NCBI GenBank assembly: GCA_003132505.1
Contig: PKXY01000034.1
Location: forward strand, 62,001-126,000
DNA length: 64,000 nucleotides
Direction: 5' to 3'
DNA from: Solirubrobacterales bacterium
GTDB taxonomy: Bacteria > Actinomycetota > Thermoleophilia > Solirubrobacterales > Solirubrobacteraceae
Numbering within the stretch: the first letter of the stretch is position 1; the number at the start of each line of letters is the position of its first letter. This document shows, piece by piece, positions 26,854-39,103 of the stretch. Made by a program: the position numbers and the translations under genes. The notes beneath the pieces were generated by a model. It did not search any database, had not been told where the DNA came from, and saw only the letters and a list, made by a program, of their open reading frames with translations.

Positions 26854-27648
26854 CTACCGGATCTCGTGCGGTGCCGTTGCGCCGACCGGTGGCGGCATGC
26901 GCCCGAACGGAGCATCGTCGGACGGGAGCGAAATTGATCCTCGGCCGGGGACGATCTCGGTCACCCACTGAAAGCCTCGTATCTCCGGCGGCGTCACTGC
27001 TCTGATCCTCAGGTCTCGCGCCTCGAGCGTGGCGAGCAGCCACTGCCGGTCGAAGATCACGGCATTTGTCACATCTGTGTCGTTTATATACAGCGCATTC
27101 TGAAAGTCATGCATCATCGGAAAGTGGGCTTTGTCAAACAAAAACCATGACGCAACCATAACGCCGTTGGGTCGGAGCACGCGTGCCACTTCGTCGAGGT
27201 AGTACTCCGCCTGTGATTGTGTGAGGTGCGTAAAGACGGACCATGCAATCAGGAGCGTGACGCTGGCGCTGTCGACCGGGAAGGGAGCAGCCAGCGGAAG
27301 CTGGGGATCCGGATTGAAGCCCCCGTTGAACACGTTGTGGTGCGCGAACGAGAACTGCGGTAGCTGAGGCGCCAGGTTCTCGTTGGCCCATTGGATCATC
27401 CCGCGGTGGAGGTCAATCCCTACGTAGCGATCGGGCATCGGGGCGGCCGCGAGTGCAAGCTTTCTCGCCACGCGACCGCAGCCGCAGCCGAAGTCGAACA
27501 CGAACGCATACTGCTCGGCGGCGATAGTCGGAAAGACGGGCTCGCCTGCCGGCTGGTCGAAGGCTTCCGGATCTGTGGGGCCCACGAGCTCGCGCATCTC
27601 CGGGCGCGGCAGCGGCAGAGCGGCGCCTAATTGTCGACGGTGGCGCAC
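26854..27648 (-). CDS. SAM-dependent methyltransferase
   Basis: The 264-residue protein has FVFDFGCGCGRVARKL (SAM loop), YVGIDLHRGMIQWA (acidic strand), LLIAWSVFTHLTQSQ and VLRPNGVMVASWF, all standard for class I methyltransferases. Translation starts at GTG 27648, six bases after a TAGACT hexamer on the same strand, so the message is probably leaderless. The start codon lies inside an 18-bp inverted repeat whose other arm is 45 bp upstream. Confidence 0.87.
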   Translation of the reverse strand: MRHRRQLGAALPLPRPEMRELVGPTDPEAFDQPAGEPVFPTIAAEQYAFVFDFGCGCGRVARKLALAAAPMPDRYVGIDLHRGMIQWANENLAPQLPQFSFAHHNVFNGGFNPDPQLPLAAPFPVDSASVTLLIAWSVFTHLTQSQAEYYLDEVARVLRPNGVMVASWFLFDKAHFPMMHDFQNALYINDTDVTNAVIFDRQWLLATLEARDLRIRAVTPPEIRGFQWVTEIVPGRGSISLPSDDAPFGRMPPPVGATAPHEIR

Positions 27649-27713
27649 GCGCCGAGTCTATCTTTGGGGATGGCGACGACTACGGTAGCTCGCGTGCGTG
27701 CGCCACCGTCGAC
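27633..27713. repeat. 18-bp perfect inverted repeat flanking a 45-bp divergent promoter-like spacer
   Basis: Left arm 27633-27650 and right arm 27696-27713 are exact reverse complements. The left arm holds the GTG start of the methyltransferase on the minus strand. The right arm holds a mirror GTG at 27698 on the plus strand that reads six codons and stops at TAA 27716. Each GTG is preceded at six bases by a TAGNN(T/C) hexamer (27655-27660 minus; 27686-27691 plus). Confidence 0.85.
27655..27660 (-). promoter_or_regulatory. -10 element TAGACT, leaderless promoter of the methyltransferase
   Basis: On the minus strand TAGACT is followed by six bases and the GTG at 27648. It lies within the spacer of the inverted repeat. 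Confidence 0.5.
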
Positions 27714-27903
27714 GCTAACCGGCTGCACGCGCGAACCCTGAATGCCGACGCATCGTGGTATCCGTGCGGACCGCCGATGCGCTCTGATCGCAAATGCGCA
27801 CCTCGCGAAAGTCTCGCTGAAGAGGAGACCAGCCTAATAGGCTGCCTGAAGTGTTCGCGCTTTTGCTCATTTACGATCCAGGGCGACGAGTGCGATTCCT
27901 TCC

Positions 27904-29061
27904 GTGAGCCCTGCGAGCTCTCGCTCCCTCGATGCGCGTCGCGCCCTGATGCAGCGACTCCCCAGGGTCGAGCTTGCCGGCTTTCTCGAGAGCGCCGTCG
28001 GGGCGGGCGAGGCAGCGCGGCGCTACCTCGGGGCGCTGCGCTCGGTTGGCGTACCCGTGCGCCCGCGCGACGTCGAACTCCCGGGTCGCGACCCCGCGCG
28101 GACCGCCTTTGACCAGGGCGGCCGCTTCGCCCTGCGCACGACGCGCTTCAACCTTATCTGCCTCAACCCGGAGCAGCTGATCCCATACCGCTCTTCTCAC
28201 GCGGCTCCGAGCGGGCACCGGCGAACGACCGTCGCAGCCTGGAATTGGGAGGTTGACATCTTGCCTCCGGGATGGGCCGACGCGGCGAGCGAGGTCGCGG
28301 AGATCTGGGCCTGTTCGGAGTTCACGGCGAGCTTCATCCGTGCTGGTACCGGCGCGCCGGTCGTGGCGATGCCTCTCCCGTTGGCGACCGCGATCGCGCG
28401 TCCTCCGGCATTGGCGCCGGACTTGCCCGCCGGCTTTCGCGTTCTGATGATCTTCGACTATCTCTCGACGATCCAGCGCAAGAACCCGATCGGGGCGATC
28501 GAGGCCTACCGCCAGGCATTTGCTCCGAGCGATGGCGCGCAGCTGATCGTGAAGTCGATCAATGGCGCGCACCGTGTGGAGGCCCGCGAGCAGGTCGAGC
28601 GCGCAGCCATCGGTCGCAGCGACATCGTCCTGATGGAGGAGACTATCTCGGGTGCCGCGCGCGACGCACTGGTCGCCGCCTGCGACTGCTTGCTGTCCTT
28701 GCATCGCGGCGAGGGCTTCGGACTCTCGCTCGCCGACGCGATGGTCGCCGGCAAGCCGGTTGTTGCCACTGCCTACGGCGGCAACACCGAGTTCATGAGG
28801 CCCACGAACTCCTACCTCGTTCCCTACGAGATGACGAATGTCGGCCCGGGCTGCGAGCACTACCCGCCTGAGGCGCGGTGGGCCGAGCCCGACGTGTCAA
28901 GCGCGGCGGCAGCGCTGCGCGAGATCGCCGGCGACGTCGGAGTGGCACGGGAGCGCGGCCTAACGGCTCAGGCCGACGTCCGTACGCTTCTCGCCCCCGA
29001 ACGCATCGGGCGACTGATGCTCAGACGCTTCGAGGCGCTTCGTAGCGACCCAGCCGCTTGA
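27904..29061 (+). CDS. family 4 glycosyltransferase, paralogue of the C-domain of the 4128 protein
   Basis: The 385-residue protein is a GT-B transferase that parallels the C-terminal half of the 926-residue protein. Shared blocks are QRKNPIGAIEAYRQAF, LLSLHRGEGFGLSLADAM, GNTEFMRPTNSYLVPY and YPPEARWAEPD. The N-terminus PRVELAGFLESAVGAGEAAR corresponds to the GYFNTESGVGEHAR opening of the paralogue. The GTG at 27904 is the start used here. Upstream 255 bp hold the inverted repeat and a small AGCCT-AAT-AGGCT palindrome near 27832. Confidence 0.88.
   Translation: MSPASSRSLDARRALMQRLPRVELAGFLESAVGAGEAARRYLGALRSVGVPVRPRDVELPGRDPARTAFDQGGRFALRTTRFNLICLNPEQLIPYRSSHAAPSGHRRTTVAAWNWEVDILPPGWADAASEVAEIWACSEFTASFIRAGTGAPVVAMPLPLATAIARPPALAPDLPAGFRVLMIFDYLSTIQRKNPIGAIEAYRQAFAPSDGAQLIVKSINGAHRVEAREQVERAAIGRSDIVLMEETISGAARDALVAACDCLLSLHRGEGFGLSLADAMVAGKPVVATAYGGNTEFMRPTNSYLVPYEMTNVGPGCEHYPPEARWAEPDVSSAAAALREIAGDVGVARERGLTAQADVRTLLAPERIGRLMLRRFEALRSDPAA

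Positions 29062-39029: not shown

Positions 39030-39103
<74 letters not shown>

Follow-up and report, generated by a model that had tools for sequence, protein, structure and literature searches.

Leaderless genes in high-GC bacteria are marked by a TANNNT hexamer adjoining the start codon (PMC3160421, PMC3898074). According to the sections of these papers cited here, such genes in Actinobacteria, Deinococcus-Thermus and Mycobacterium have the hexamer about 12 bp ahead of their start codon, lack a Shine-Dalgarno sequence and may begin with GTG. The methyltransferase gene described here has the same features but differs from these genes in one respect, since an inverted copy of its start is present upstream. 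Short inverted repeats have been described in several other settings. In invertons they are 10-40 nt long (PMC11892184), and during replication template switching creates reverse-complement copies and homogenises short inverted repeats (PMC8794818, PMC8604942). Template switching also inverts spacers, the cases reported in the part of the source cited here being changes of 2-5 bp (PMC8604942). In bidirectional promoters of E. coli, the start sites are commonly 10, 18 or 23 bp apart (PMC12825309).

The stretch of 64,000 nucleotides that was analysed (G000:C26:62001-126000), here called the window, belongs to a genome of 2.75 Mb in 45 contigs that is 91% complete and whose GC content and leaderless-type starts would suit an actinobacterium. 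The repeat lies between two divergent genes, the methyltransferase on the minus strand, starting at 27648, and a glycosyltransferase on the plus strand (Glyco_trans_1_4, 27904-29061). Neighbouring genes encode glycosyltransferases, methyltransferases and a dTDP-sugar epimerase, and the neighbourhood appears to be a surface-polysaccharide-type cluster. A search against a plasmid collection returned one weak match, to a glycosyltransferase. No Rfam family was found at the repeat locus, the two matches in the window lying elsewhere. The window also contains a c-di-AMP riboswitch (RF00379; 36304-36456, minus strand) and a tRNA gene (39030-39103, plus strand).

The 18-bp inverted repeat that the initial annotation had claimed at the methyltransferase start is real. 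Its left arm (27633-27650, plus strand; GTCGACGGTGGCGCACGC) holds the start codon and the first codons of the methyltransferase on the minus strand, and its right arm (27696-27713, minus strand) is 100% complementary to the left one. Between them lies a spacer of 45 bp (27651-27695, assigned to no strand) that is weakly self-complementary beside the arms. An arm of 16 bp or longer was found in none of 150 windows simulated with a second-order Markov model, and the maximum of 15 bp was reached in four of them. We also sampled 461 kb of real sequence, made up of the window and a further 396,806 bases (approximately 17% of the genome). This sample contains two arms of at least 18 bp, the one at the methyltransferase start with 18 bp and another with 20 bp, the next longest being 14 bp; in ten third-order simulations of the whole sample, an 18-bp arm appeared once. 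Since no simulated window exceeded 15 bp and the repeat is one of two arms of at least 18 bp in 461 kb, it is not explained by chance. The RNA folds of region 27625-27725 have a minimum free energy of -61.2 kcal/mol (z -6.8) on the plus strand and of -51.8 (z -5.5) on the minus strand. In the fold the stem extends imperfectly into the spacer; 227 of 5,000 shuffles were equally good, and the extension is only marginally beyond chance.

The methyltransferase (Methyltransf_25/11 domain, 264 amino acids) occupies positions 26854-27648 on the minus strand. From the in-frame stop to the LPLP motif conserved in the protein, GTG 27648 is the sole ATG, GTG or TTG. Six nucleotides (CGGCGC) before it lies TAGACT (27655-27660, minus strand), the putative -10 element, which falls into the leaderless class as we defined it (TANNNT 6-9 nt before the start codon). 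Five SD-like words were sought 4-16 nt ahead of GTG 27648 and none was present. No sigma-70 consensus promoter was detected between 26700 and 28200, a result that is uninformative since the signal of this genome is TANNNT. With this arrangement RNA polymerase would recognise TAGACT and transcription would begin at or beside GTG 27648, giving a message that starts with its own start codon.

That TANNNT is indeed used in this genome is suggested by a set of 289 long frames, chosen by a simple rule on GC content by codon position, of which 281 have an ATG or GTG in their first 300 bases. TANNNT was located 6-9 nt upstream of the first start codon in 46 of these 281 frames, compared with 5 of 260 and 0 of 164 when the first start codons of the two shifted frames served as controls. 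The counts at distances of 6, 7, 8 and 9 nt were 17, 8, 7 and 14, where those at 6 and 9 nt may partly reflect the in-frame stops that delimit the frames; distances 7 and 8, which are out of phase with these stops, are also raised, and distances 0, 3, 12 and 15 are not (1, 1, 2 and 3). TANNNC, in contrast, is not enriched (9 of 281 versus 7 of 260 and 6 of 164). This class includes TAGCTC (27686-27691, plus strand), which is followed by GCGTGC and then by GTG 27698. The proposal of a promoter hexamer on each side of the repeat is thus supported for TAGACT, which appears to be part of an ordinary leaderless-type start, and not supported for TAGCTC as its plus-strand counterpart, which lies outside the TANNNT class.

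Orthologues of the methyltransferase are rare. Of the 232 genomes from the order, only 4, among them the source genome, have the gene at E <= 1e-30. The three orthologues from the same order (L010, L048 and L049) have TANNNT 7, 7 and 9 nt, respectively, before a start that is located 4-5 residues ahead of a conserved LPxP motif. L010 and L048 have further in-frame starts upstream, one of those in L048 having an SD-like GAGG; the start with TANNNT is the closest to the motif. In the Mesorhizobium orthologue (L050), TANNNT precedes no start, and one possible start has an SD-like GGAG. None of these four orthologues contains an inverted-repeat arm longer than 10 bp around the start, compared with 18 bp here; they are distant, with 46-59% protein identity. 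Because the orthologues of the order share the TANNNT start and their arms do not exceed 10 bp, the predicted start layout is conserved and the repeat is not. TAGACT-6-GTG is thus, as far as can be read from the sequences, an ordinary leaderless-type start with a layout common to the orthologues of the order. The relative in Mesorhizobium hawassense is 58% identical, yet the remaining three genomes from the genus gave no orthologue (limit 1e-30), which suggests horizontal transfer of the methyltransferase gene.

In the genomes searched, the repeat itself is confined to this locus. Among the 232 genomes of the order, the exact arm occurs at the methyltransferase start locus only; with up to one mismatch it occurs in 28 of them, the source genome included. 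We fetched 30 loci in which the arm is exact or has one mismatch, and an inverted partner with up to three mismatches was present only at the methyltransferase start locus; in L068 a partner with four mismatches lies approximately 110 bp away. The genome contains no second copy of the repeat, and viral contigs gave no match when two paired arms separated by 15-45 bp were sought. DNA matches in relatives were obtained in at least 9 of 61 genomes (E <= 0.01, the source genome included, most genomes being scored on 12 first-look candidates), and among the listed matches outside the locus none spans both arms.

Three options had been offered for the repeat in the initial annotation, an invertible promoter, a regulatory hairpin or the scar of an inverted duplication. 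The last of these fits best, since the repeat is present as a single copy, is absent from the four orthologues examined and has no recombinase match on its contig. Our main reading, to which we assign a probability of about 0.6, is that a conserved leaderless start was joined by a recent local inverted duplication, probably made by replication template switching and without function. The mirror copy would have arisen once in this lineage, either because a short segment was duplicated in inverted orientation or because an imperfect palindrome was homogenised, and template switching of the polymerase during replication would be the most likely route. A part of the mirror copy in methyltransferase expression is not visible in the sequence; the copy is probably neutral and would add at most a weak rightward start to an intergenic region that is already divergent. 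With quasipalindromes and template-switch inverted duplications the locus shares a short local reverse-complement copy at a single locus with perfect arms. It differs from them in its 45-bp spacer and in that the ancestral state was not found: the search gave no relative in which the locus is present and the repeat missing, and the duplication event itself was thus not seen. Further points speak against a scar. The spacer is far longer than the reported template-switch spacer inversions, the arms are perfect but the spacer is not, and selection on the arms could give the same pattern. In addition, a pure scar does not predict a second, outward-facing signal of the leaderless type (TACGGT-7-GTG).

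This second signal lies on the plus strand. There the mirror GTG (27698-27718) opens six codons followed by TAA (27716-27718; VRHRRR*), and the earlier statement that the plus-strand copy stops after six codons was right: GTG 27698 is followed by five more codons and the stop. Judged by the start signals of the genome itself, the plausible plus-strand -10 element is TACGGT (27681-27686) and not TAGCTC. TACGGT is located 7 nt before GTG 27694, a distance that places it in the leaderless class of this genome, and GTG 27694 opens a putative frame of 15 codons ending with TGA (27694-27741, plus strand; VRAPPSTLTGCTREP) in a leaderless-type layout. It might therefore be asked whether the two elements form a mirrored divergent promoter pair, in which TAGACT would serve the methyltransferase leftward and TACGGT would serve rightward either the leaderless short frame or a leader of the glycosyltransferase, both giving RNAs with much the same first bases. 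The two -10 elements stand back to back, 20 bp apart, in a divergent intergenic region, which speaks for such a pair. However, an opposite TANNNT at a distance of 10-30 bp was found in 7 of the 46 leaderless-type genes, the methyltransferase included, and in four of the seven a start codon follows after a further 6-9 nt; for this reason the pair is only suggestive. A peak at 20 bp, as expected if mirrored -10 elements had a fixed spacing in this genome, was absent. Bacterial bidirectional promoters likewise have divergent -10-like elements within one short region, but here the divergent starts, placed by their start codons, would be 46 bp apart, more than in E. coli, and a single shared symmetric -10 element is missing.

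The glycosyltransferase, moreover, has a nearer candidate. TAGGCT (27838-27843, plus strand), 7 nt before GTG 27851, is more likely to be the -10 element of the rightward glycosyltransferase region than TACGGT, and with it the mirrored start would not be needed for this gene. GTG 27851 opens a frame of 18 codons (VFALLLIYDPGRRVRFLP; 27838-27907 together with the hexamer). Its stop codon, TGA, shares bases with the GTG at which the glycosyltransferase begins, and a coupling of this putative leaderless frame to the glycosyltransferase is possible. In three relatives of the glycosyltransferase (L102, L103 and L104), no in-frame start has TANNNT at a distance of 4-13 nt upstream; L104 is uninformative since its frame runs far upstream. 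The palindrome AGCCTAATAGGCT (27831-27843) contains TAGGCT on both strands and resembles a symmetric two-way -10 element. Taken as an explanation of the repeat, the mirrored pair is doubtful.

A hairpin is the next explanation to be considered. For the methyltransferase itself, the regulatory hairpin put forward earlier finds no support: a start at or near GTG 27648, as implied by the TANNNT-6-GTG layout, means that the predicted leaderless mRNA would hold one arm only and would lack the complete hairpin. Upstream of the glycosyltransferase, the structure might still regulate or terminate an antisense RNA or one produced by rightward read-through. The plus-strand fold is very stable, and a short terminator-like site was called at 27638-27654, where the region gave 2 such sites and shuffles gave 0.8. 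The sampled genome also offers a precedent for a hairpin without a U-tract between convergent genes. This site (L086:4871-4915) is a perfect 20-bp hairpin with a loop of five bases and is possibly a two-way terminator. At the methyltransferase start, however, no gene ends, both neighbours beginning there, and the U-rich tail of an intrinsic terminator is missing after the 18-bp stem on both strands (tails GCTAACCG and AATTAGGC). We regard a function of the repeat as hairpin on such RNAs as improbable.

Apart from the repeat itself nothing supports an invertible promoter, in which a flip of the 45-bp spacer would switch methyltransferase expression. Like the invertons, the locus has a promoter-like element between the arms of a short inverted repeat, which here is perfect and has 18-bp arms that fall within the inverton range. 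The register would change upon inversion: the computed inversion places TACGGT on the methyltransferase side, where it lies 11 nt upstream of the gene's own GTG and 7 nt upstream of a GTG that is out of frame. It differs from the invertons in its 45-bp spacer, which is short for recombinase synapsis, and in the lack of a recombinase match on the contig. The resolvase family PF00239 had no match in the genome (91% complete), and of the ten genome matches to the tyrosine recombinase family PF00589 none was on contig C26. An invertible promoter is therefore unlikely here, and a flip that switches expression very much so. Since template switching has also been reported, in the source cited, to invert spacers, a small chance of a flipping start remains. 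Inversion by this route or by a distant recombinase would exchange the in-frame TAGACT-6-GTG for the out-of-frame TACGGT-7-GTG and turn the methyltransferase off with its start codon unmoved; the chance of this is slimmer still, and such a switch, acting on the reading register, is not described in the sections of the literature cited here. Least probable of all is a mobile element, small and non-autonomous, that would have carried in the start codon together with its terminal inverted repeats. In its favour, the ends are perfect, the interior is less matched, and on the minus strand TTAG is seen by eye close to each end. However, the TTAG copies have unequal offsets and do not adjoin the ends of the repeat in a symmetrical way, the genome has no second copy, none of the 232 genomes has the exact arm at another locus, and the -10/GTG layout is present in orthologues that lack the repeat.

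We thus return to the inverted duplication beside a conserved leaderless start. As it stands, the locus represents an ordinary start with an unusual scar. In a genome of this type, the strict spacing of leaderless starts would allow a short copying accident to create a second, outward-facing start-like sequence.
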